NCBI GenBank assembly: GCA_947478455.1
Contig: CANJWR010000018.1
Coordinates: 1-40,137 of the forward strand
Reading direction: 5' to 3'
DNA: 40,137 nt
Origin: Beijerinckiaceae bacterium
GTDB lineage: Bacteria > Pseudomonadota > Alphaproteobacteria > Rhizobiales > Beijerinckiaceae
The notes under the pieces are model-generated. The model saw only the letters and a list, made by a program, of their open reading frames with translations. It did not search any database and was not told where the DNA came from. Positions 12,094 to 40,137 of this stretch are shown here, piece after piece (the first letter of the stretch is position 1; every line of letters begins with the position of its first letter). The translations under genes and the position numbers were made by a program.

Positions 12094-12121
12094 TCATCCG
12101 GACACCGGCGATCTGCGTAGA
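12094..12121 (+). promoter_or_regulatory. Candidate ECF sigma-E (ChrR-partner type) promoter for the photolyase operon
   Basis: TCATCC (12094-12099), a 16-base spacer and CGTAGA (12116-12121) lie 39 bases ahead of the GTG start of the photolyase gene. The sigma-E promoters of Rhodobacter sphaeroides, as I recall them, have TGATCC and a TA-containing -10 at the same spacing; here one -35 base differs. The same architecture (TGATCC, 16 bases, CGTATG) is found ahead of the ChrR-like gene at the far end of this locus, which is the main reason for calling it. Confidence 0.45.
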
Positions 12122-12159: not shown

Positions 12160-13623
12160 GTGACAGGACAAGCGCCGGCCATCGTATGGTTTCGCGACGA
12201 CCTTCGTCTGTCGGATCAGCCCGCCCTTCAGGCTGCGGTGGAGACCGGCGCGCCGATCATTTGTCTCTATGTTTTCGACGAAGTCAGTTCAGGGCTCCGC
12301 CCTCCAGGCGGCGCGTCGCGTTGGTGGCTACATCACTCTCTGGCGGCGCTGGCGACGTCGCTCGATAAGATCGGTGGACGGCTTGATATTTTGCGCGGCG
12401 CGGCGAGCGAACTGATTCCGCAACTTGCAGCCGCGAGCGGCGCAGCAGCGGTTTTCTGGACGCGCCGCTATGGCGCAGCCGAAATCGCCCTCGACACCGC
12501 GATCAAGGAGGCGTTGCGCCGCAACGGCGTGACGGCACAGAGCCACAACGGGCAATTGCTGTTCGAGCCGTGGCAATTGAAAACGAAAGCCGGCGGGCCG
12601 TTCCGGGTATTCACGCCATTCTGGCGCGCTGCGCTCGCCCTGCCCTCACCGGCGCATCCTGCGCCCGCCCCGAAGGCGATCAAAGCCGCCGACTGGCCGG
12701 GTAAGATCAAACGTTTAGCGCTGGATGACCTCGGCCTGCTTCCCCTAAAGCCCGACTGGGCCGGCGGATTGCGCAAGGCGTGGCGACCGGGTGAGGCCGG
12801 CGCGCAGGCGCAGTTGCGCCATTTTCTCGAATCGCGCCTTGCTCGCTATGCGGCGGACCGCGACCGGCCCGATGTGGAGGCGACATCGCGCCTCTCGCCG
12901 CATCTGCGCTTTGGCGAAATATCGCCCCGCCAGATTCTCGCCGCGACACGCCACGCGCAGGACTCTGGAGACGCTTCTCCGCAGGGCGTGGCTAAATTCA
13001 CCGCCGAAATAGGCTGGCGGGAATTCTCGTATCACCTGCTCTACCAATCGCCCGATCTGGCGACGCGGAACTTCCAGAAGCGTTTCGACGTCTTTAAGTG
13101 GCCAGAACCCAACCCCGATCATCTGCGCCTTTGGCAGCGCGGGCAGACGGGCTATCCGATTGTCGACGCCGGCATGCGCGAACTTTGGCAGACCGGCACA
13201 ATGCACAATCGCGTACGGATGGTCGCCGCCTCCTTCCTCATCAAGCACCTGATGGTTCGCTGGCGGCGTGGCGAGGAATGGTTCTGGGATACTCTGTGCG
13301 ACGCCGATCCGGCCAGCAATCCGGCCAGTTGGCAATGGGTGGCGGGCTCGGGGGCGGACGCTGCTCCCTATTTCCGCATTTTCAACCCAATCCTGCAGGG
13401 CGAAAAATTCGATCCGGATGGGGCTTACGTGCGTAATTACATTCCAGAACTGGGAAACATGCCTGCCAAATGGATTCACAAGCCCTGGACCGCGCCTCCA
13501 TTCGTCCTCAAGGAGGCAGGCGTCAGCCTCGGATCATCCTATCCGTCGCCGATCATCGATCACGATCGGGCGCGTCAACGCGCGCTCGCGGCTTTTGCTG
13601 AATTGGCGTTGACCAATGGCTGA
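12160..13623 (+). CDS. phrB: Deoxyribodipyrimidine photo-lyase (cryptochrome/photolyase family)
   Basis: A 487-residue flavoprotein that uses blue light to split UV-induced pyrimidine dimers. The N-terminal antenna domain opens with IVWFRDDLRLSDQPAL. The C-terminal FAD-binding domain shows GEISPRQIL, ARYAADRDRPD, the NRVRMVAASFLIKHL block, and WRRGEEWFWDTLCDAD followed by NPASWQWVAG, all typical of class I CPD photolyases. The start is a GTG at 12160; AGGG lies close upstream and the codon just follows a candidate sigma-E-type promoter. A 69-base gap separates it from the flavin oxidase gene, so co-transcription is likely. In Rhodobacter the photolyase gene belongs to the singlet-oxygen regulon, which fits the neighbours here. 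Confidence 0.92.
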   Translation: MTGQAPAIVWFRDDLRLSDQPALQAAVETGAPIICLYVFDEVSSGLRPPGGASRWWLHHSLAALATSLDKIGGRLDILRGAASELIPQLAAASGAAAVFWTRRYGAAEIALDTAIKEALRRNGVTAQSHNGQLLFEPWQLKTKAGGPFRVFTPFWRAALALPSPAHPAPAPKAIKAADWPGKIKRLALDDLGLLPLKPDWAGGLRKAWRPGEAGAQAQLRHFLESRLARYAADRDRPDVEATSRLSPHLRFGEISPRQILAATRHAQDSGDASPQGVAKFTAEIGWREFSYHLLYQSPDLATRNFQKRFDVFKWPEPNPDHLRLWQRGQTGYPIVDAGMRELWQTGTMHNRVRMVAASFLIKHLMVRWRRGEEWFWDTLCDADPASNPASWQWVAGSGADAAPYFRIFNPILQGEKFDPDGAYVRNYIPELGNMPAKWIHKPWTAPPFVLKEAGVSLGSSYPSPIIDHDRARQRALAAFAELALTNG

Positions 13624-13692: not shown

Positions 13693-15003
13693 ATGAAAAT
13701 CGCAATTGTTGGAACTGGCATTGCCGGCAATGCCGCCGCTCTCTCGCTGACGCTCGGCGACCCTTCCAACCACCTTGTTGTCTATGAACGCGATCTACGT
13801 CCGGGCGGGCATTCGGCCACAGTGAACGTCGACTATCGCGGTGCGCAGATGGCGGTCGACACGGGCTTCATCGTTTATAACGAGGAAAACTATCCGAACC
13901 TCACCGCTTTGTTCGAGTTTCTCGACGTCGCCACACAGCCGACGAACATGAGTTTTTCGGTCTCGGCCGATGCCGGGCGTTTCGAATGGTGCGGTCGCGA
14001 CGGCGTCGATGTGGTTAGCGGGCTCTTCGCGCAATGGACCAATGCGCTTTCGCCCTCCTATCTCAACATGCTGGTGCAGATCCTGCGCTTCCAGAAACAG
14101 GCCAAGGCCGATCTGAACAGCGGGAAGCTGGGAGATGTTTCGCTCGGCGACTATCTGGCGCGGTTCAAATTCATTGGCCGCCTGCGCGACGATTATCTTG
14201 TGCCGATGGGCGCGGCGATCTGGTCGACTTCGCCACATGACATGCTGAACTTTCCTGCCGAGAGCTTTCTGTCCTTCTTCGACAATCATCGCCTGCTCGA
14301 CTGGAATCGCCCGCAATGGCGCACCGTGACCGGCGGCAGCCGTTCCTATGTCGAGCGCATCACGCGCTTCTACAAGCAGCATATGCGGCTGGGCGCGGCG
14401 GTTGTGTCGGTCGAGCGCAAGCTGGAGGGCGTCGAGGTGGTCGACAGCCTCGGGCACAAGGATATGTTCGATCAGGTCATCATCGCCGCCCATGCGCCCG
14501 ATTCGCTCGCAATGCTGACGGCGCCGACACAAGACGAGCGAGACATTCTCGGCGCCTGCGGCTATTCGGACAATGTCGTCTACCTGCATCACGACGAACG
14601 GCTGATGCCAAAGCGAAAGCGCGCCTGGGCCGCATGGAATTTCTTGCGCGAAGGCCGGGACGCCTCCCGCAAGGTCTCGGTTTCCTACTGGATGAATTGT
14701 CTGCAATCGCTCGACGAAACGCGCCCGCTCTTTGTCACGTTAAATCCTCCCATCGAACCGGACCCAAACAAGACCTTCGGGCGTTACGTTTACGCACATC
14801 CACAGTACGATGCGGCCGCGCTTCGCGCCCAGTCTCGTCTCAACGACATTCAGGGCAAGGACCGGATCTGGTATTGTGGCGCATGGACCGGTCACGGCTT
14901 CCATGAGGATGGTCTTGTGTCAGGCTTAAAAGTCGCGGAAGCTCTCGGGGCGGCGCTTCCGTGGCGAAAGGACAAGACTGCCATGCAGATCGCAGCTGAA
15001 TGA
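13693..15003 (+). CDS. FAD-dependent oxidoreductase, amine-oxidase/desaturase-like (COG2907 type)
   Basis: A 436-residue flavoprotein starting directly with the dinucleotide-binding fold: IAIVGTGIAGNAAALSL (residues 3-19) and the acidic end of strand 2 (VVYERDLRPGGHSAT). The C-terminal FAD contact is WYCGAWTGHGFHEDGL. There is no signal peptide. AGGAC lies upstream of the ATG. Its stop overlaps the next start (ATGA). Proteins of this type are regularly found with DUF1365 and CFA-family genes. Known work on the Rhodobacter locus links such genes to modification of unsaturated fatty acids, including furan fatty acids, and to the singlet-oxygen response. I infer a membrane-lipid redox step; the actual reaction is not readable from the sequence. 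Confidence 0.85.
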   Translation: MKIAIVGTGIAGNAAALSLTLGDPSNHLVVYERDLRPGGHSATVNVDYRGAQMAVDTGFIVYNEENYPNLTALFEFLDVATQPTNMSFSVSADAGRFEWCGRDGVDVVSGLFAQWTNALSPSYLNMLVQILRFQKQAKADLNSGKLGDVSLGDYLARFKFIGRLRDDYLVPMGAAIWSTSPHDMLNFPAESFLSFFDNHRLLDWNRPQWRTVTGGSRSYVERITRFYKQHMRLGAAVVSVERKLEGVEVVDSLGHKDMFDQVIIAAHAPDSLAMLTAPTQDERDILGACGYSDNVVYLHHDERLMPKRKRAWAAWNFLREGRDASRKVSVSYWMNCLQSLDETRPLFVTLNPPIEPDPNKTFGRYVYAHPQYDAAALRAQSRLNDIQGKDRIWYCGAWTGHGFHEDGLVSGLKVAEALGAALPWRKDKTAMQIAAE

Positions 15004-15884
15004 CAACGGGAACTTCGGACAATGCCATGACGCAAGCGCCCCCCGCAGAGGCGGTTGCGCTCTATGTCGGCGACGTCACCCACGCGCGGATGAAGCCTTT
15101 CACGCACCGCTTCAAATATCGTGTGTTCTCCATCCTGATCGACATTAACCGTCTGCGGGATGCAGACCGGCTTACCAAGGTTTTTTCTGTCGGTGGCTTT
15201 AATCTTCTGTCGTTCAGCGAAAAAGATCACGGCGCACGCGACGGATCACCGCTGCGCGCCCATGTGGACAGGTTGCTGTCGGAATCAGGCGCTAATGTAT
15301 CAGTAAAACGAGTGATGCTGCTGTGCTATCCGCGCATTCTCGGAATGGTGTTCAATCCGCTATCTGTCTATTATTGCTTCGACGAATCTGGCGAGATGAC
15401 AGCGCTTGTTTACGAGGTGCGCAATACATTCGGCGACATTCACTCCTATGTCGCGCCGATCCGACAGAAGGGCGAAAAGACAGCCGGCGGCATCCGGCAG
15501 GAACGCGACAAGCTCTTTTATGTCTCGCCGTTTCTCGAAATGACCATGCGGTACAAGTTCCGCCTGTTGCCGCCCGGCGACGCATTGAAACTGCGTATCC
15601 TCGAAGTGGACGCCGAAGGTCCCATTCTGGCGGCAGCATTCTCGGCGCAGCGCCGGCCCTTCACGACAGCTTCTCTGCTGCGCGTCTTTTTTGCGATACC
15701 CTTGCTGACGCTCAAGGTCGTCGGCGGCATCCATTGGGAAGCCTTGAAATTATGGTTGAAGGGCGCAAAACTTCAGCCGAGACCGACGCCGCCCGGTCGC
15801 GCGAGCTTTAACGAACACAGGCTCGCAACGGACAAGGGTAGCGCGGAGACGCCAATTCCCTTGATCGTTCGTCCTCATTCGTGA
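15000..15884 (+). CDS. DUF1365 domain-containing protein
   Basis: A 294-residue protein recognised as DUF1365 by its N-terminal YVGDVTHARMKPFTHRFKYR segment and by the following blocks GMVFNPLSVYYCFDE, VRNTFGDIHSY and KLFYVSPFLEMTMRYKF. The ATG at 15000 overlaps the previous stop by four bases; a second in-frame ATG at 15027 is possible. A hydrophobic stretch (TASLLRVFFAIPLLTLKVVGG, residues near 222-242, slightly over membrane length) suggests membrane association near the C-terminus. DUF1365 genes almost always sit beside flavin oxidase and CFA-type genes as here, so a role in the same lipid modification is likely, but its biochemical activity is not known to me. Confidence 0.88.
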   Translation: MTTGTSDNAMTQAPPAEAVALYVGDVTHARMKPFTHRFKYRVFSILIDINRLRDADRLTKVFSVGGFNLLSFSEKDHGARDGSPLRAHVDRLLSESGANVSVKRVMLLCYPRILGMVFNPLSVYYCFDESGEMTALVYEVRNTFGDIHSYVAPIRQKGEKTAGGIRQERDKLFYVSPFLEMTMRYKFRLLPPGDALKLRILEVDAEGPILAAAFSAQRRPFTTASLLRVFFAIPLLTLKVVGGIHWEALKLWLKGAKLQPRPTPPGRASFNEHRLATDKGSAETPIPLIVRPHS

Positions 15885-17149
15885 ACGGGGCGCACATGAA
15901 AGTCACCATCACTACTGCTGACAACCAGACCTTTACGGTTACGCCGGATAAAATCGCGGGCGAGTGCGGCGACTATCCGTTTGCGGTCCGGCACGCGCTG
16001 ACGCTCGCGTCCAATCTCGAAAAGGGCCGGCTCGACATCAATATGCCTGACGGGCGCATGTTCAGGTTCGATACCGGCCAGCAAGGCGCGATTGCTGAAA
16101 TGTACGTGCGCAACATGGCTTTCGCAAAACGTCTCGCACAGGGCGGCGACATCGGCATCGCAGAAGCCTATCTGCACGGCGACTGGGATACGCCCGATCT
16201 GCCGCGCTTTCTTGAATTGTTCTGCAGCAATCAGTCCGTCATGACAAAGATGCTGGAAGACAAGCCGATCGTACGCTTTTTCCAGATGATCCGTCACTGG
16301 CTGCGACGTAACACCAAGTCCGGCTCTCGCCGCAACATTCACGCTCACTACGATCTCGGCAATCGCTTCTACGAAGCATGGCTCGATCGGACGATGACCT
16401 ATTCGTCGGCTCTTTTTGTCGACGGCGCTAACGATCTCGCCAGCGCACAGACGAGCAAATATCGCGAACTCGGCGACAAGCTGAAGCTCGGCGCAGACAA
16501 AAGCGTTCTGGAAATTGGCTGCGGCTGGGGCGGCTTCGCAGAATTCGCCGGCAAAGAATATGGTTGTCACGTCACCGGCCTGACGATCAGCCGCGAGCAG
16601 CACGATTTCGCCCAAAAGCGTATTTTTGAAGCTGGTCTCGCCGACAGGGTCGAGATCAGACTGCAGGACTATCGCGACGAAAAGGGTTCGTTCGACGCTA
16701 TCGCATCCATCGAAATGTTCGAGGCGGTTGGGGAGGCCTACTGGCCTGCGTATTTCAAGCAGCTGCACGACCGGCTGAAGCCGGAAGGCCTTGCGGGCCT
16801 ACAGGTCATCACCATCGACGAATCCCTGTTCGACCAATACCGGCGCGAGCTGGATTTCATCCGTCGCTATATTTTCCCCGGCGGCATGTTGCCGACCGGC
16901 ACGATCATGCGGCAACTCGGCGACAAATACGGAATGCCGCTGGCGGGCGAACGCGTCTTCGGCCTCGATTATGCGGCGACGCTCAGCCAGTGGCGCGATC
17001 GTTTCTATGCCGCATGGCCGAGCCTGACAGGGCTGGGCTTCGACGAACGTTTCCGGCGCATGTGGGAATATTATTTGTCCTACTGCGAAGCGGGCTTCCG
17101 GGCCGGCACTATCGACGTACGGCAAATGGTGTTCGCGAAGGGAACGTAG
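15881..17149 (+). CDS. Cyclopropane-fatty-acyl-phospholipid synthase-family methyltransferase
   Basis: A protein of 422 residues (417 if the ATG at 15896 is used instead of the overlapping GTG at 15881). The SAM-binding core reads VLEIGCGWGGFAEFAG, and the family's substrate region appears as NIHAHYDLGNRFYEAWLD and TYSSALF. Further blocks are SIEMFEAVGEAYWPAYF and FIRRYIFPGGMLPT. It adds a methylene or methyl group to the double bond of an unsaturated acyl chain in membrane phospholipid. Known relatives include classical Cfa and the methyltransferase that starts furan-fatty-acid synthesis; with a flavin oxidase and DUF1365 gene directly upstream, the second is a real possibility. It precedes the MFS gene by three bases. 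Confidence 0.88.
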   Translation: MNGAHMKVTITTADNQTFTVTPDKIAGECGDYPFAVRHALTLASNLEKGRLDINMPDGRMFRFDTGQQGAIAEMYVRNMAFAKRLAQGGDIGIAEAYLHGDWDTPDLPRFLELFCSNQSVMTKMLEDKPIVRFFQMIRHWLRRNTKSGSRRNIHAHYDLGNRFYEAWLDRTMTYSSALFVDGANDLASAQTSKYRELGDKLKLGADKSVLEIGCGWGGFAEFAGKEYGCHVTGLTISREQHDFAQKRIFEAGLADRVEIRLQDYRDEKGSFDAIASIEMFEAVGEAYWPAYFKQLHDRLKPEGLAGLQVITIDESLFDQYRRELDFIRRYIFPGGMLPTGTIMRQLGDKYGMPLAGERVFGLDYAATLSQWRDRFYAAWPSLTGLGFDERFRRMWEYYLSYCEAGFRAGTIDVRQMVFAKGT

Positions 17150-17152
17150 CGA

Positions 17153-18478
17153 GTGCGCGCAGAACCCGGTCGTTGGATGCTGGCGGCCTATGCGTTGCCT
17201 GCCTTGCCGCTGGCGATGCTGACGTTACCGTTCTACGTGGTGGTTCCGGCCTTTTATGCGCGCACACTGGGGCTGCCGATTGCGGCTGTCGGCGGCGCAC
17301 TTCTGATTGTTCGTCTGGTCGATGCCGTGAGCGATCCGCTCGTCGGCTATCTGGCGGATCGCTGGCGGCCCGCCTTCGGCCGACGCCGGTTGTGGACGCT
17401 GGCTGCGTCCTTTCCGACGGCTTTCGCGGCCTACCAGATCTTCGCGCCGCCGAATGACGCGACACTGCAACACCTGACGTTTTGGGGCATTCTGCTCTCG
17501 GTCTTCTGGACCTCTGTTTTGGTGCCCTACACCGCATGGGGCGCGGAACTCTCGACCAGCTATGCGGGCCGAACGCGCATTGCGGCATGGCGGGAAATGT
17601 TCGCCGTCGTTGGCACACTGGTGGCTCTCGTGGTTCAGGCGGCGGCGCTCTGGGCCGGGCAGTCGGAACGTTTTGCGCTTCTGACCACAGGGTTGCTGAT
17701 CGGCTTCGGACTACCGATTGCGGCGCTGATGACGGTTTCGGCGACGCCGGAACCATTTGACGCAACGCAGAAACGCCTGCCGGTTCGTGATGGTTTCGCG
17801 CTCATGGCCAGCAATGCCCCTTTCGTGCGCCTGCTGTTTGCGTTCTTTCTGAACGGATGCGCCAACGGCTTTCCGGCAACGCTGTTTCTTTTCTTTGTCT
17901 CGGAAAAATTGCAGGCGGAAACATGGGCCGGCCCTCTGCTGGTCATCTACTTTCTATGCGGGGTGCTGGGCGTGCCGCTCTGGCTGAAGATGGCGCAGCA
18001 GACATCAAAGCATCGCGCATGGTGCGTGGCGATGATCGGCGCCTGCGCGTTCTTCGCCATCGCGCCATTCCTGCAGGCCGGCGATGCACACTGGTTTGCG
18101 CTGGTCTGCATCGGAACGGGACTGGCGCTCGGCGCGGATGTGATGCTGCCTCCAGCCATTCAGGCGGATGTGATCGATGTCGATACAGCCGCCTCGGGCG
18201 AACAGCGCGCCGGTCTTTACTTTGCGATGTGGAGCCTCACGACGAAACTGGCTCTCGCACTGGCTGTCGGCGTTGCGTTTCCGGTTCTGGCCTTGTGGGG
18301 GTTCGATCCTGCCGCCAATCTGCGAACAAATTCCGGCCTTGCGATGCTCGGGTTTCTTTATGCGGGCGCGCCTGTGCTGCTCAAACTCGCATCTATCGCG
18401 CTCATGTGGAACTTTCCGCTCGACGCTGCGGCGCAGGCTCAATTGCGCGCCACGATCGACGCACGTCAGAAAAGCTGA
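17153..18478 (+). CDS. MFS transporter, sugar:cation-symporter-like (COG2211 type)
   Basis: A 441-residue membrane protein with about twelve hydrophobic segments. Features of the melibiose-carrier-like group are the early VRLVDAVSDPLVGYLADRW segment and the PYTAWGAEL block. The start is a GTG three bases after the stop of the methyltransferase gene, so it is the last gene of the photolyase operon. Its TGA abuts the convergent stop of the short-chain dehydrogenase gene with no base between (TGATCA). A carrier of this kind is a regular member of the ChrR-type locus. Whether it moves lipids, osmolytes or something else is unknown. Confidence 0.85.
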   Translation: MRAEPGRWMLAAYALPALPLAMLTLPFYVVVPAFYARTLGLPIAAVGGALLIVRLVDAVSDPLVGYLADRWRPAFGRRRLWTLAASFPTAFAAYQIFAPPNDATLQHLTFWGILLSVFWTSVLVPYTAWGAELSTSYAGRTRIAAWREMFAVVGTLVALVVQAAALWAGQSERFALLTTGLLIGFGLPIAALMTVSATPEPFDATQKRLPVRDGFALMASNAPFVRLLFAFFLNGCANGFPATLFLFFVSEKLQAETWAGPLLVIYFLCGVLGVPLWLKMAQQTSKHRAWCVAMIGACAFFAIAPFLQAGDAHWFALVCIGTGLALGADVMLPPAIQADVIDVDTAASGEQRAGLYFAMWSLTTKLALALAVGVAFPVLALWGFDPAANLRTNSGLAMLGFLYAGAPVLLKLASIALMWNFPLDAAAQAQLRATIDARQKS

Positions 18479-19255
18479 TCAGGCCCCGCCAGTCCGCCAT
18501 CGCAGCAAGCGGAAATAGACGCTGTAGGGCAGCATGTTGAGAAATTTCAGCGACCACGCCATGCGGCGCGGAAAAGCAATTTCAAATCCCGCCTTTTCGA
18601 AACCGTCGCAGATGCGCTGCACGGCGTCGTCCAGTTCGAGCAGAAATGGCATGTCATAGGGGTTGAGATCGGTCAGCGGCGTCTTCACAAAGCCCGGACA
18701 GACGACCTGCAGATTGACGCCGACCTTGTCGAGATCGAATTTCAACGCCTCGCACATCGCGATCAGCGCGGATTTCGAAGCCGAATAGGCTATAGCGCGC
18801 GGCATCCCGCCATAACCGGCGACCGAAGACGTTACGGCGATCTGGCCCTTGCGGCGCGCGCTCATCGCCCGAACCAGAGGCGCGAGACAATTCAATGTTC
18901 CCTCAAGATTCAGATGCAGCGTTTCGCGGAACCCATCGCCGCCGAAATCGCCGGGTTTGTCGGCCACGTAGGTTCCGGCGTTGAGAAAGGCCAGCGCGAT
19001 AGGCCCGTGAGCGCTCTCGATGTCGGCAACCATCGATTCCATTGCGAGGCGGCCGGTAATGTCGCCGGGTGCGGGAATGATCCGGCCCCTGAGCCCGCCC
19101 GCCTCGGCGGCGAGCTTTTCAAGTTCTCCGGCCCGGCGGGCCGTCGCCAAAACTTTGTAGCCGCGCCGCGCGAGCTCCAGAGCTACGCCACGCCCTATGC
19201 CGGAACTTGCGCCCGTGACCCACGCCGCGCCTTCTGCCGGATTGGCGCGATACAT
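18479..19255 (-). CDS. Short-chain dehydrogenase/reductase
   Basis: A 258-residue classical SDR. The cofactor motif TGASSGIG is at residues 14-21, NAG at 92-94, and the catalytic triad is Ser143 (VTSSVAGYG), Tyr157 and Lys161 (YSASK). The tail is arginine-rich with a hydrophobic patch (FLNMLPYSVYFRLLRW), suggesting possible membrane contact. It starts 12 bases after the stop of the ChrR-like gene, so the two form one leftward unit. Same-type SDR genes occur in the corresponding Rhodobacter cluster. A role in reduction or oxidation of lipid-derived or other stress products is inferred from context only. Confidence 0.88.
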   Translation of the reverse strand: MYRANPAEGAAWVTGASSGIGRGVALELARRGYKVLATARRAGELEKLAAEAGGLRGRIIPAPGDITGRLAMESMVADIESAHGPIALAFLNAGTYVADKPGDFGGDGFRETLHLNLEGTLNCLAPLVRAMSARRKGQIAVTSSVAGYGGMPRAIAYSASKSALIAMCEALKFDLDKVGVNLQVVCPGFVKTPLTDLNPYDMPFLLELDDAVQRICDGFEKAGFEIAFPRRMAWSLKFLNMLPYSVYFRLLRWRTGGA

Positions 19256-19267
19256 GGCGAACTCCTG

Positions 19268-19930
19268 TCAGCGCGGACCGAAAAACCGGTCAATAATCCG
19301 GCCCACAGGACCGGTCAGGTGCAGATGGCCTTCGGTGACGGCGAAGCAGAGACAATCGCCGCCCTTGTCCACCGTGGGGCGATGATCGATTTCGGCATCG
19401 GCGATCACGATGTCGCCGCGCCCGTAGTTGCCGTTCAAATCAGAAAACGCGCCCTGAAGCACCAGGGTAGTTTCCGACCCTTCATGGGTATGGGACGGGA
19501 TGGCCCGCCCTGCCCCAATCCAGAACAGGCTCGCCTCAATCCCGTCAGCCGCATTCACTTTGCACTCGCGGACGCCCGGAAGCAGGGATCTCCACGCAAT
19601 CGCATCAAGATCGCGCCCCACGTATCGGCGGATGGAGGCAGGAAGTTGCGAGGACGCAGAAGACGGCGCCCGGGGCTTCTGGGCAAGCTCCTCCCCGAAG
19701 ATCCGCGCCAAACAGGCATCTCGCGTCTCAACATCTGTCAGCGGCATCTCGAGAAGGCGCTCGCCCTCAAGCCCTTCCAGCGCCTGAACGAACCGCCGAT
19801 TATCCGGCTTGAGTTCGAGATGCGCCTGAACCAGCGCATACAGAGCGGGATCAAGAGCCCCGGCGGCGTACCGACCAAGCAGAGCGTCGAGCGGGTTCGC
19901 GTCGGAGTTGCGAGCGTATTCGGCGGGCAT
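19268..19930 (-). CDS. ChrR-like cupin protein with a degenerate anti-sigma zinc site
   Basis: A 220-residue homologue of ChrR, the zinc anti-sigma factor that releases sigma-E on singlet-oxygen stress. The C-terminal cupin domain keeps all metal ligands: His147, His149 and Glu153 (PSHTHEGSE) and His183 (DHRP), and also the two cysteines Cys193 and Cys195 (DCLC). With a constant six-residue offset to R. sphaeroides ChrR (recalled from memory), the anti-sigma domain ligands align to Asn12, His37, Lys41 and Asn44: only the histidine survives and the CxxC is gone. The helix motif LLGRYAAGALD is retained. It is transcribed with the SDR gene and has a candidate sigma-E promoter 90 bases upstream. 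No sigma gene adjoins it. It may be a cupin sensor or enzyme rather than a working anti-sigma factor. Confidence 0.85.
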   Translation of the reverse strand: MPAEYARNSDANPLDALLGRYAAGALDPALYALVQAHLELKPDNRRFVQALEGLEGERLLEMPLTDVETRDACLARIFGEELAQKPRAPSSASSQLPASIRRYVGRDLDAIAWRSLLPGVRECKVNAADGIEASLFWIGAGRAIPSHTHEGSETTLVLQGAFSDLNGNYGRGDIVIADAEIDHRPTVDKGGDCLCFAVTEGHLHLTGPVGRIIDRFFGPR

Positions 19931-20019: not shown

Positions 20020-20047
20020 CATACGGGTTGGTCAAGGGATCGGATCA
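20020..20047 (-). promoter_or_regulatory. Candidate ECF sigma-E (ChrR-partner type) promoter for the ChrR-like/SDR unit
   Basis: Read on the minus strand, TGATCC (20047-20042), a 16-base spacer and CGTATG (20025-20020) precede the ChrR-like gene by about 90 bases. The -35 is identical to the recalled sigma-E consensus of the ChrR system. Together with the similar element before the photolyase gene, it suggests that both arms of the locus respond to the same ECF sigma factor. Confidence 0.5.
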
Positions 20048-20132: not shown

Positions 20133-21164
20133 ATGCAGATCAATCAGGACGTTATCGGGGCCATTGGAAACACGCCGCTCATCCGGCTGCGCAAGGCGTC
20201 GGAACTGACCGGCTGCAACATTTTGGGCAAGGCGGAGTTCATGAATCCGGGCGGTTCCGTCAAGGATCGCGCGGCGCTGGCCATCGTGCAGGATGCATTG
20301 GCCAACAGGCGGCTCGCGCCCGGCGGCCTGATTGTCGAGGGCACGGCCGGCAATACGGGCATCGGGCTCGCGTTGGTCGCCAACGCCATGGGCTTCCGGA
20401 CCGTGATCGTGATCCCCGAGACCCAGTCGCAGGAAAAGAAGGACATGCTGCGCCTGCAGGGCGCGGAACTGATCGAGGTTCCGGCTGTCCCGTATTCGAA
20501 CCCGAACAACTACGTGAAAGTCTCGGGCCGTCTGGCCGAGCGACTGGCCAAAGAGCATCCGCAGGGCGCGATATGGGCTAACCAGTTCGACAATGTGGCC
20601 AATAGGGCAGGCCATATCAGCACAACGGGACCGGAAATCTTCGCCCAAACTGACGGCAAGGTGGATGGCTTCACATGTGCGGTCGGCACCGGCGGCACAT
20701 TGGCCGGGACAGGCATGGCGCTGAAAGAGCGGAATCCGAACATCAAGATCGCGCTGGCGGACCCGATGGGGGCCGCGCTCTACAGCTACTATACGACCGG
20801 CGCGCTGAAATCGGAGGGGACGTCGATCACCGAGGGCATCGGTCAGGGCCGTATCACGGCCAATCTGGTCGATGCGCCCATTGATATGGCCTTCCAGATC
20901 ACCGATGAAGAAGCGCTGCCAATCGTGTTTGATTTAGCCGCCGAAGAAGGCCTGCTGCTGGGCGGGTCGTCCGGCATCAACGTCGCCGGCGCGATCCGAC
21001 TGGCGCGCGAAATGGGCCCTGGCCACACCATCGTGACAGTTCTCTGCGATTCCGGCGTGCGCTATGCGTCCAAGCTGTTCAACCCGGCATTCCTTCGCGA
21101 AAAGAACCTGCCAATTCCTGCGTGGATGGATCGTGCGCCGACGATCAAGGCTGATCTGGTCTAG
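20133..21164 (+). CDS. cysK: Cysteine synthase A (O-acetylserine sulfhydrylase)
   Basis: A 343-residue PLP enzyme that makes cysteine from O-acetylserine and sulfide. The Schiff-base lysine is Lys44 in NPGGSVKDRAA, the substrate loop is EGTAGNTGIGLA, and the PLP-phosphate loop is GTGGTLAGTG. The C-terminal GGSSGINVAGAI block completes the fold. The length is slightly above the 310-320 residues of enteric CysK but normal for the longer form common in alphaproteobacteria. It begins 202 bases from the divergent ChrR-like gene, with GGGTGAG before the ATG. No terminator was seen after it. Confidence 0.9.
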   Translation: MQINQDVIGAIGNTPLIRLRKASELTGCNILGKAEFMNPGGSVKDRAALAIVQDALANRRLAPGGLIVEGTAGNTGIGLALVANAMGFRTVIVIPETQSQEKKDMLRLQGAELIEVPAVPYSNPNNYVKVSGRLAERLAKEHPQGAIWANQFDNVANRAGHISTTGPEIFAQTDGKVDGFTCAVGTGGTLAGTGMALKERNPNIKIALADPMGAALYSYYTTGALKSEGTSITEGIGQGRITANLVDAPIDMAFQITDEEALPIVFDLAAEEGLLLGGSSGINVAGAIRLAREMGPGHTIVTVLCDSGVRYASKLFNPAFLREKNLPIPAWMDRAPTIKADLV

Positions 21165-36725: not shown

Positions 36726-36746
36726 ACGCAGACTTATTGTCTGCGT
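36726..36746 (+). promoter_or_regulatory. Perfect stem-loop in the nrdJ leader
   Basis: ACGCAGAC and GTCTGCGT form an 8-bp stem with loop TTATT, ending five bases before the AGGAAG ribosome binding site. CTTTC follows the stem. A second element, GGCC-N7-GGCC, lies just upstream. Such a pair could act as an attenuator or control ribosome access. Confidence 0.5.
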
Positions 36747-36763
36747 CTTTCAGGAAGAATTCT

Positions 36764-39700
36764 ATGCGGATCGAACGCCGGTACACGAAAGCCAACCAGT
36801 CTCCCTATGCGGACATCACTTTCCGCGAGGCGAAGAGTGAAATCCGTAACCCGGACGGTTCGGTGGTATTCTCCAAGTCGGGCGTTGAAGTCCCCGCCGA
36901 CTGGAGTCAGGTCGCCTCCGACGTCATCGCCCAGAAGTATTTCCGCAAGGCCGGCGTTCCGGCGCGCCTGAAGAAGGTCGAGGAAAATTCCGTCCCGTCC
37001 TTCCTCTGGCGCTCGGTCCCCGACGAGGCGGAACTCGAAAAGCTCCCGAAGGCCGAACGCTACGGCTCGGAATCCACCGCGCAGCAAGTGTTCAACCGCC
37101 TCGCCGGCACGTGGACCTACTGGGGCTGGAAGGGCAAGTATTTCGACACGGAAGACGACGCCCGCGCCTTCTATGACGAGATGTGCTTCATGCTGGCCAA
37201 GCAGATTGCCGCGCCGAATTCGCCGCAATGGTTCAACACCGGGCTGCACTGGGCCTATGGCATCGACGGCCCCGGTCAGGGCCATTATTACGTCGATTAC
37301 GCCACCGGCAAGCTGACGAAATCGAAATCTTCCTACGAGCATCCGCAGCCGCACGCCTGTTTCATTCAGGCCGTGCAGGACGATCTCGTCAACGAAGGCG
37401 GCATCATGGACCTCTGGGTTCGTGAAGCGCGCCTCTTCAAATACGGCTCCGGCACCGGCTCGAACTTCTCGCGCATTCGCGGCGAGAACGAGAAGCTCTC
37501 GGGCGGCGGCTCGTCCTCCGGCCTGATGTCCTTCCTGAAGATCGGCGACCGCGCAGCGGGCGCGATCAAGTCTGGCGGCACCACGCGCCGCGCCGCCAAG
37601 ATGGTGGTGGTCGACGCCGACCATCCGGACATCGAGGCCTATATCGCCTGGAAGGTGAAGGAAGAAGAGAAGGTCGCGGCGCTCGTCACGGGTTCCAAGA
37701 TCGTCAAGAAGCACATGAAGACAATCATGCGCTCCTGCGTGAATTGCGAGGGCTCTGGCGACGATTGCTTCAACCCGGAAAAGAACCCGGCGCTGAAGAA
37801 GGCCATCAAGCTCGCCCGCCGCGACACCGTGCCGGACAATTACATCAAGCGCGTGATCCAGTTCGCCAAGCAGGGCTATACGGAGATCGAGTTCGACACC
37901 TATGACACCGACTGGGATTCGGAAGCCTATCTGACCGTCTCGGGCCAGAACTCGAACAATTCCGTGCGCGTCACCGACGACTTCCTGCGCGCGGTCGAGA
38001 CCGACGGCAACTGGGATCTCATCCGCCGCACCGACGGCAAGATTCACAAGACCCTGAAGGCCAAGGATCTCTGGGAAAGTATCGGCGAAGCCGCATGGGC
38101 CTCCGCCGATCCGGGCATCCAGTACCACACGACCATCAACGACTGGCACACCTGCCCGGCTTCGGGGCCGATCATCGCCTCGAACCCCTGCTCCGAATAC
38201 ATGTTCCTCGACGACACGGCCTGCAATCTGGCCTCGATGAACCTGCTGCAGTTCCGCGACGCCCAGAGCGGCGTGCTCGACATCGATGCTTACGAACACG
38301 CCGTCCGCCTGTGGACCGTGGTGCTCGAAATTGCCGTCCTGATGGCGCAGTTCCCGTCGAAGGAAATCGCCAAACTGTCCTACGACTACCGTACGCTCGG
38401 CCTCGGTTACGCCAATGTCGGCGGCCTGCTGATGTCGTCCGGCATCGGCTACGATTCCGACGAAGCCCGCGCCATCGTGGGCGCGTTCACGGCCGTCATG
38501 ACCGGCGTGTCCTACGCAACCTCCGCCGAAATGGCGAAGGAGCACGGCGCGTTCCCGAGCCATGCGCCCAACGCCCAGCACATGCTGCGCGTCATCCGCA
38601 ACCATCGCCGCGCCGCCTATGGCGAGGCCCATGGCTACGAGAAGGTGAACACGCCGCCGGTCGCGCTGGACCATGCGACGCTCGCCAAACTCGGCCAGAA
38701 CGGCAAGACGCTTTCGGACCGCGCCCGCATGGCGTGGGACAAGGCCCTGTCGCTCGGTGAACAGCACGGCTATCGCAATGCGCAGGTCTCGGTCGTCGCC
38801 CCCACCGGCACGATCGGCCTCGTGATGGATTGCGACACGACCGGCATCGAGCCCGACTTCGCGCTTGTGAAGTTCAAGAAGCTCGCCGGCGGCGGCTATT
38901 TCAAGATCATCAACCGCGCCGTGCCGGAAGCGCTGCGGGTGCTCGGCTACACGCCGGCGCAGATCGCCGAGATCGAGGCCTATGCGGTCGGCCATGCGTC
39001 GCTGGCGCAGTCGCCGGGCGTCAACAACAATACGCTGAAGGCGCGCGGCTTCACCGACGAGCGCATCGAAGCTCTGGGCAAGACGCTCGCGGGCGCGTTC
39101 GACATCAAGTTCGTGATGAACAAGTGGACGCTCGGCGAGGACTTCCTCAAGAACGGCCTGAAAGTCCCGGCTGACAAGCTCGACGATCCGTCGTTCGAAC
39201 TCCTGCCCTTCCTGGGCTTCTCGAAAGCCGAGATCGAGGCCGCCAACATTCACGTTTGCGGCGCGATGACGCTGGAAGGCGCGCCGCACCTGAAGGTCGA
39301 GCACTATCATGTGTTCGATTGCGCCAATGCGTGCGGACGCACCGGCAAGCGTTATCTCTCTGTCGACAGCCACATCCGCATGCTGGCCGCCGCGCAGCCC
39401 TTCATCACCGGGGCGATTTCGAAGACCATCAACATGGCCAACGACGCGACGGTGGAAGACTGCAAGAACGCCTACATGCTGTCGTGGCGTCTGGGCCTCA
39501 AGGCCAATGCGCTCTATCGCGACGGCTCGAAGCTCTCGCAGCCGCTCAATTCGCAGCTCATTCAGGACGACGAGGAAGAAGACGACGACTCGCTCGAACA
39601 GCTGATCGCGCAGCCGATGGCGACCCGCACCGCGCAGGTGACGGAAAAAATCGTCGAGCGCATCATCGAGCGCGTGCAGGTGACGCGCGAGCGCGAACGT

Positions 39701-40137
39701 CTGCCGGACCGTCGCAAGGGCTATACCCAGAAAGCCGTGGTGGGCGGGCATAAGGTCTATCTGCGCACCGGCGAATATCAGGACGGCCGCATCGGCGAAA
39801 TCTTCATCGACATGCACAAGGAGGGCGCTGCCTTCCGGTCGTTGATGAACAATTTCGCCATCGCGATTTCAGTCGGCCTGCAATACGGCGTGCCGCTCGA
39901 CGAATATGTGGACGCCTTCACGTTCACGCGCTTTGAGCCGGCGGGTTTCGTGCAGGGCAATGACGCGATCAAGAACGCCACGTCGATCCTTGACTATGTG
40001 TTCCGCGAACTGGCGATCTCCTATCTGGGCCGCAACGACCTCGCGCATGTGGAGCCGAGCGAAATCGGCCACGACGTGCTCGGCAAGGGCGACGACCAGA
40101 GCCGCGCGCCTTCCGCTGCTGCGGCGGCGGCCGCCAC
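36764..40137 (+). CDS. nrdJ: Adenosylcobalamin-dependent ribonucleotide reductase, class II (3' end outside window)
   Basis: The first 1124 residues of a class II ribonucleotide reductase, which makes deoxynucleotides with a radical formed from coenzyme B12 and so works with or without oxygen. The active site is N474-P-C476-S-E478, with the redox cysteine pair Cys199 (PHACFIQ) and Cys487 (TACNLASMN). Other blocks are [22 protein letters not shown] and [17 protein letters not shown]. An acidic stretch (DDEEEDDDS) followed by a charged helix ([16 protein letters not shown]) separates the core from a TSCPD-like C-terminal part, and an alanine run ends the visible part. AGGAAG precedes the ATG at 36764. 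The C-terminal CxxC would lie beyond the edge. Confidence 0.95.

Follow-up and report, generated by a model that had tools for sequence, protein, structure and literature searches.

What can a protein of the ChrR family do when its cupin half has kept the metal ligands and its anti-sigma half has lost the zinc site? The protein that raises this question is encoded in a window of 40,137 nucleotides, by which we mean the whole stretch of DNA analysed; it is contig C18, one of 317 in an assembly of 4.6 Mb that is 92% complete and whose closest named relatives belong to the Beijerinckiaceae / Hyphomicrobiales. The chrR-like gene (19268..19930, minus strand) is an open reading frame of 220 amino acids with an ATG start. 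A phmmer search of the PDB aligned residues 14-204 of its product with residues 8-198 of R. sphaeroides ChrR (2z2s_B; E 7.9e-36), and the TIGR02451 model, 'ChrR family anti-sigma-E factor', scored 164.3 bits against a cut-off of 124.5 over profile positions 3-215 of 216, in agreement with the descent from ChrR proposed in the original prediction. NF051881, the NCBIfam equivalog of characterised stress ChrR, gave 131.3 bits, below its cut-off of 300; among Pfam models, Cupin_7 scored above its cut-off and zf-HC2 below. The profile search matched no membrane family. Judged by its sequence, the protein is confirmed as a full-length member of the ChrR family, with an anti-sigma domain devoid of zinc ligands at approximately residues 1-85 and a cupin domain at approximately 95-205.

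The reference ligands in R. sphaeroides ChrR, as given in excerpts of PMC6852236, are His6, His31, Cys35 and Cys38 for zinc and His141, His143, Glu147 and His177 for the cupin. An alignment of 72 genomes placed N12, H37, K41 and N44 at the four zinc positions of the chrR-like protein and H147, H149, E153 and H183 at the cupin positions, with C193 and C195 also present, so that both the intact cupin site and the replacement of three of the four zinc ligands, His37 alone being kept, were found as they had been predicted. The residues N12/H37/K41/N44 depart from the ZAS motif H/C-X24/25-H-X3-C-X2-C. The predicted constant offset of six residues to R. sphaeroides ChrR was recovered in both domains; between approximately residues 60 and 82, two compensating two-residue gaps shift the numbering by two. 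An in-frame stop lies two codons before the ATG (frame L001:1435-2100, ATG at 2094), and since just two codons separate stop and start, no N-terminal CxxC can be hidden there. A CxxC elsewhere in the N-terminal domain, which the original prediction had named as counter-evidence, was likewise ruled out by the reading frame and the clade alignment.

The TIGR02451 search of the window genome returned a single protein, that of the window; three further Cupin_7 matches failed TIGR02451, which speaks against a second complete chrR in this genome, as far as the 92% complete assembly shows. The genome-wide check suggested at the outset, for a second complete chrR beside an ECF11 sigma gene, thus came back empty. 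As predicted, no sigma gene adjoins the chrR-like gene: of eight Sigma70_r2 matches in the genome, none is on contig C18. The ECF11-type sigma factor of this genome is encoded on contig C40 (25785-26354, minus strand) and matched R. sphaeroides RpoE with 161.7 bits, against 72.7 bits for the next best solved chain; the gene that follows it is of the alcohol-dehydrogenase type, not chrR. These results bear on the proposal that the protein is a side protein tuning a 'real ChrR', that is, a second, complete ChrR-sigma pair. The window genome has one TIGR02451 match and its ECF11-type sigma gene is followed by no chrR. Among 101 genomes, the window's own and 100 relatives, TIGR02451 matched in 82, above cut-off in 69 and twice above cut-off in none. 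The proposal is disfavoured on these grounds, and we give it scarcely any probability, even though genomes of other families, described below, do hold one ChrR-family protein beside a sigma and a second one apart.

From the 82 matching genomes 72 were read, and ten (G011, G045, G053, G058, G059, G066, G080, G086, G093 and G095) were left out for weak cupin-only or fragment matches. Two kinds of ChrR were found. In 28 of the 72 genomes chrR touches an ECF11-type sigma gene, and the zinc positions are His/His/Cys/Cys in 27 of these; the remaining one, G079, reads Arg/His/Asn/Thr and appears to have lost the zinc site independently, with the sigma gene still adjacent. In the other 44, the window's and 43 relatives, chrR has no sigma gene in the stretch read. 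Canonical ChrR is absent from all 44 genomes with the zinc-less unlinked form, and an ECF11-type sigma gene lies elsewhere in 43 of them, the exception being the fragmented assembly G014, in which no sigma was found. In the one-contig genome G100 the chrR and sigma genes are approximately 1 Mb apart. Two further fragmented assemblies, G017 and G018, contain an orphan ECF11-type sigma and no ChrR by TIGR02451 or by the zinc-less alignment. Within this set the trees split once into linked and unlinked forms, with SH-aLRT support of 100 for ChrR (43 unlinked rows) and 88 for sigma (45). The loss of the zinc site is common to the whole clade and so does not represent the chance decay of one gene.

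A further survey of 80 loci from the genome collection, 79 of them readable, gave the same picture. At 78 of the 79 loci the protein is zinc-less and the stretch read contains no sigma gene; the exception, from Ruegeria, has both the zinc site and an adjoining sigma gene. The zinc-less loci of this survey comprised 49 new ones and 30 whose proteins were already in the first set. An ECF11-type sigma (183-259 bits) was found in each of the 24 named zinc-less genomes searched, two of which (G106 and G124) are repeats of G060 and G100.

Could the anti-sigma domain still bind zinc or another metal through different ligands, the site having moved rather than vanished? The second zinc His, His37 in the window protein, is invariant in all 43 unlinked proteins with a readable N-terminus, and a His occurs at position 41 or 44 in L185, L186 and L203 and at position 12 in L174. 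Against this, Cys was found at 41 or 44 in none of the 43, these positions being mostly K/R/S/N and N/S, respectively, and the clade alignment contains no other conserved Cys or His column in the anti-sigma domain. We regard a moved site as very improbable.

The zinc-less anti-sigma half is itself well conserved. L17, G24, L26, L33, H37 and L38 are invariant among the 43 unlinked proteins, and Y21 (41/43), R45 (40/43) and V48 (41/43) are nearly so; in the predicted helix IV, L74 is kept in 44 of 44, R70 and I77 in 41 each and F78 in 40. Because 33 of the 44 unlinked genomes belong to one genus, conservation was recounted in the 11 outside it: L17, G24, L26, L33, H37, L38 and L74 remained invariant (11/11), followed by I77 (10), R70 (9) and F78 (7). 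The same six N-terminal residues and L74 are invariant in a 24-row alignment (A1). Among these 11 proteins, mean pairwise identity was 0.43 in residues 14-58, 0.40 in helix IV and 0.50 in the cupin, compared with 0.11 in the linker; for 17 linked proteins outside the genus the values, in the same order, were 0.41, 0.21, 0.41 and 0.10. According to passages of PMC6852236, in the known complex helix IV contacts sigma region 2.1; the helical bundle can be held by zinc or by protein-protein contacts. As far as these alignments tell, the anti-sigma half of the unlinked ChrR is not decaying.

This conservation weighs on a different reading, that sigma binding has been lost and the protein is now a cupin sensor or enzyme within the regulon, acting for instance on oxidised lipids of the neighbouring cluster, with the sigma factor controlled otherwise. 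Such a role would suit the cupin ligands, kept in all 42 unlinked proteins complete at the C-terminus, the lipid-modifying genes that adjoin the chrR-like gene, and the disappearance of three zinc ligands, zinc being essential in R. sphaeroides ChrR, which needs it to inhibit according to excerpts of PMC6852236; the last point also speaks against any zinc-free anti-sigma. However, conservation of the anti-sigma half, helix IV included, greatly exceeds that of the linker, and the cupin site, being shared with linked ChrR, is no specific sign of an enzyme. We consider a protein that has ceased to bind sigma unlikely, and two further lines of evidence against it, the zinc-less proteins beside sigma genes and the neighbours of the orphan sigma, are given below.

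The placement of promoters distinguishes the two arrangements. The motif TGATCC-N16-CGTA was derived from the upstream regions of relatives and then counted over 250 bp, with no more than one mismatch tolerated in the first hexamer and with first-order Markov sequences as controls; a different promoter pattern had no match in the window. An exact copy, conserved in relatives, lies at 20022..20047 (minus strand) and ends approximately 90 bp before the ATG of the chrR-like gene. The motif precedes 39 of the 44 unlinked chrR genes (Markov-shuffled mean 0.05), the misses including G036, which has no upstream sequence, and 24 of the 28 linked sigma genes of sigma-chrR operons (0.2), where we take it to resemble the published sigma-E motif. 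It was found within 250 bp of none of the 45 unlinked sigma genes (0.05). The first set had helped to define the motif, so the 49 new loci and eight unlinked genes of a class-wide sample served as later counts: the motif precedes chrR at 47 of the 49 (41 exact; shuffled 0.15) and seven of the eight (four exact). The motif thus stands before both genes in the operon form and before chrR in the split form, so that in the latter the inhibitor alone carries the promoter.

Exact sites were also counted genome-wide. The window genome has 11 against none in the reversed control, and other genomes have 1-22 against 0-5, with the control equalling or exceeding the motif count in G063, G067 and G107, so the genome-wide pattern is to be read as noisy. 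Exact sites of the window genome (L257, L258 and L252) precede an RpoH-type sigma-32 gene, a rubrerythrin-type gene and a small ORF that resembles a membrane protein and has no NCBIfam match. In R. sphaeroides, sigma-E is linked to a second RpoH.

Zinc-less ChrR also occurs beside sigma genes. A class-wide sample of 387 genomes included 161 with a TIGR02451 match at E 1e-20, from which 69 loci were read, 30 as the best-scoring and 39 picked for a late-starting or low-scoring profile match. Of these, 41 have the full zinc motif and an adjacent sigma, 20 an incomplete motif and an adjacent sigma, and eight an incomplete motif and no linked sigma; as the sample was enriched for odd N-termini, the loss of the zinc site in 20 of 61 sigma-adjacent ChrR is not a frequency. 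Loss of zinc and adjacency to sigma are compatible, which argues against the view that a ChrR deprived of its zinc site has become a mere cupin sensor or enzyme. The eight unlinked loci come from eight genomes, each with an ECF11-type sigma. In five (G140, G253, G282, G402 and G463) the stretch read around the sigma contains no ChrR. In the other three, G227 (L306, L321), G229 (L303, L348) and G314 (L305, L349), which belong to other families than the window's, a second ChrR directly adjoins the sigma, and the unlinked copy is preceded by an exact TGATCC-N16-CGTA; none of these six loci has the full zinc motif. Since linked and unlinked forms coexist there, an unlinked copy is not necessarily the only anti-sigma; these genomes are real candidates for one ChrR tuning another, and they favour both the tuning role of the original prediction and a cupin protein that has lost sigma binding. 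Two side observations belong to this sample. In L299, L300, L304 and L307 (G402, G140, G253 and G463; one family, genomes of 1.7-2.0 Mb, ECF11-type sigma elsewhere without a nearby ChrR) the unlinked zinc-less ChrR has Tyr in place of the last zinc His. G386 has two TIGR02451 matches, one of which was read (L313).

We also inspected the surroundings of the orphan sigma genes (45 loci). A divergent gene lies upstream at 37 of them, and the downstream genes vary, the commonest being of the alcohol-dehydrogenase type (12 genomes). We take the divergent gene (37/45 genomes; L084 among the loci) to be IalB-like. No other anti-sigma candidate recurs in the ten largest neighbour clusters, which rules out an alternative inhibitor there and disfavours a sigma controlled otherwise than by ChrR. 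Distances of ChrR and sigma were correlated, both in 42 unlinked pairs (r 0.92) and in 28 linked ones (r 0.68). When cysK was used to represent the species tree, the partial correlation was 0.88 in 34 genomes (0 of 2000 permutations). The short-chain dehydrogenase (SDR) encoded next to chrR served as a control in 23 genomes and behaved similarly (0.81 for ChrR-SDR versus 0.86 for ChrR-sigma, given cysK), which weakens the tree correlation as proof of partnership; with both covariates the values were 0.59 for ChrR-sigma (given cysK and SDR) and 0.33 for ChrR-SDR (given cysK and sigma). Co-evolution of ChrR and sigma is suggestive only on this comparison of sequences.

The SDR gene of the window (18479..19255, minus strand) begins 12 bp downstream of the chrR-like gene and is probably co-transcribed with it; an SDR of the same type is present at 68 of 79 loci (L142-L220), and we presume it to be the likely counterpart of R. 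sphaeroides RSP1087. Beside it lies a plus-strand cluster, assigned by domain matches, which runs from a photolyase/cryptochrome-type gene (12160..13623) through a flavin amine-oxidase-type gene (13693..15003), presumably the counterpart of UfaD, a gene for a DUF1365 protein (15000..15884; Pfam PF07103) and a cyclopropane-fatty-acid-synthase-type methyltransferase (CMAS) gene (15881..17149) to an MFS_2 / GPH-type transporter gene (17153..18478). DUF1365 is the domain of UfaO, of furan fatty acid synthesis (excerpts of PMC7380195), and the neighbourhood of SDR, MFS, CFA-synthase-type, DUF1365, amine-oxidase-type and photolyase genes is in keeping with the place of furan fatty acids in the known regulon. 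A possible ECF11-type promoter before the photolyase gene, TCATCC-N16-CGTA (12094..12119, plus strand), has one mismatch and is weak taken alone; in some relatives exact sites precede the photolyase or amine-oxidase gene (two of 11 photolyase genes of the first set). On the other side of the chrR-like gene a divergent cysteine-synthase-type (PALP) gene (20133..21164, plus strand; domain match), found at 59 of 79 loci (L142-L220), marks the conserved location and is not thought to be part of the circuit; a plasmid search with this cysK-type gene gave one partial match. Further along the window, a 1027-aa frame without a Pfam match (36734-39817, minus strand) may be spurious.

The sequence, the loss of ligands, the conservation, the co-occurrence with sigma, the placement of promoters and the exclusion of canonical ChrR among relatives were all computed directly. 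In view of them we think it likely that the chrR-like protein is a working, zinc-independent anti-sigma that acts in trans on the orphan ECF11 sigma with the cupin as its sensor. The two would form a stress system of the ECF11 (RpoE/sigma-E) type whose genes have come apart, with the sigma gene on contig C40 and lacking an ECF11-type promoter within 250 bp of its start. The chrR-like protein would be made from its ECF11-type promoter, presumably by the C40 sigma itself, so that free sigma would drive its own inhibitor plus protective genes in a pure negative feedback. The anti-sigma domain may fold by helix packing rather than around zinc, as in RseA, and would hold sigma regions 2 and 4; the cupin, with its metal site kept, may sense singlet oxygen or an oxidised lipid, and the signal would lead to release of sigma or turnover of the chrR-like protein. 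The claim that the anti-sigma role had been lost fares poorly against the conserved domain, the ECF11-type promoter, the sigma gene elsewhere and the zinc-less ChrR proteins that adjoin a sigma. Its companion, a separate cupin sensor or enzyme, survives in part: a cupin acting as the sensor fits the explanation that we prefer, its separation from an anti-sigma role does not.

We lean slightly towards a broader claim, that such a rewired circuit is widespread in Hyphomicrobiales, with a sigma freed from ECF11 self-control, an unlinked and self-controlled inhibitor lacking the zinc finger, and sensing by the cupin. If the rewired inhibitor works without an anti-sigma zinc finger, sensing must run via the cupin, perhaps through lipid products of the neighbouring cluster. 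A role of the zinc finger in singlet-oxygen sensing is under debate and is supported with a model peptide in passages of PMC6432622, the ChrR cupin is stated to be the sensor in part of PMC4960319, and the precise role of zinc in ChrR is called unknown in excerpts of PMC6852236. A clade without the finger and with the cupin, the sigma and the promoter offers a natural test of finger versus cupin as the singlet-oxygen sensor, and its named strains (Stappia, Roseibium, Bosea) make the question directly testable. The split also indicates how an operon in which sigma and anti-sigma share self-control can give way to a circuit with feedback on the inhibitor alone, and that searches restricted to the surroundings of sigma genes can miss anti-sigma factors. 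A stress switch that normally depends on zinc and is encoded beside its target has, in a large bacterial group, lost both features, with signs that it does the same job. In the literature consulted we found no account of an unlinked ChrR clade lacking the zinc site, nor of an ECF11 feedback confined to the inhibitor; papers on the evolution of ECF11 regulons or on ECF reclassification could mention the clade.

The nearest known system is R. sphaeroides ChrR (PDB 2Z2S, 2Q1Z; ZAS-type, ECF11 sigma-E), with which the chrR-like protein shares the two domains, a near full-length alignment, TIGR02451, the cupin ligands and the Cys pair. Unlike it, the chrR-like protein has lost the anti-sigma zinc ligands and is not encoded with a sigma, and the promoter stands before chrR alone instead of before sigma-chrR. 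In having no zinc in the fold, the anti-sigma domain would resemble the zinc-free class I anti-sigma domains of E. coli RseA and M. tuberculosis RskA. These are membrane-anchored and are not cupin proteins, whereas the chrR-like protein is a ChrR by sequence and matched no membrane family. Zinc and non-zinc anti-sigma domains are mixed across the tree, and approximately 72% of the soluble ones have the motif (passages of PMC7406223); since non-zinc class I domains are known and common there, losing the zinc site is in itself nothing new. That survey, as described in the same passages, gathered anti-sigma factors near sigma genes, a procedure that would fail to pick up an unlinked one together with its cognate sigma. 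The gene neighbourhood, finally, recalls the R. sphaeroides RSP1087-1091 / ufa operon in its DUF1365 (UfaO domain), amine-oxidase-type, CFA-synthase-type and SDR genes; it differs in that the cluster is joined with a photolyase gene and the chrR-like gene, the likeness being one of gene types. In R. sphaeroides, the furan fatty acid genes are part of the core sigma-E regulon (excerpts of PMC7380195 and PMC6852236).
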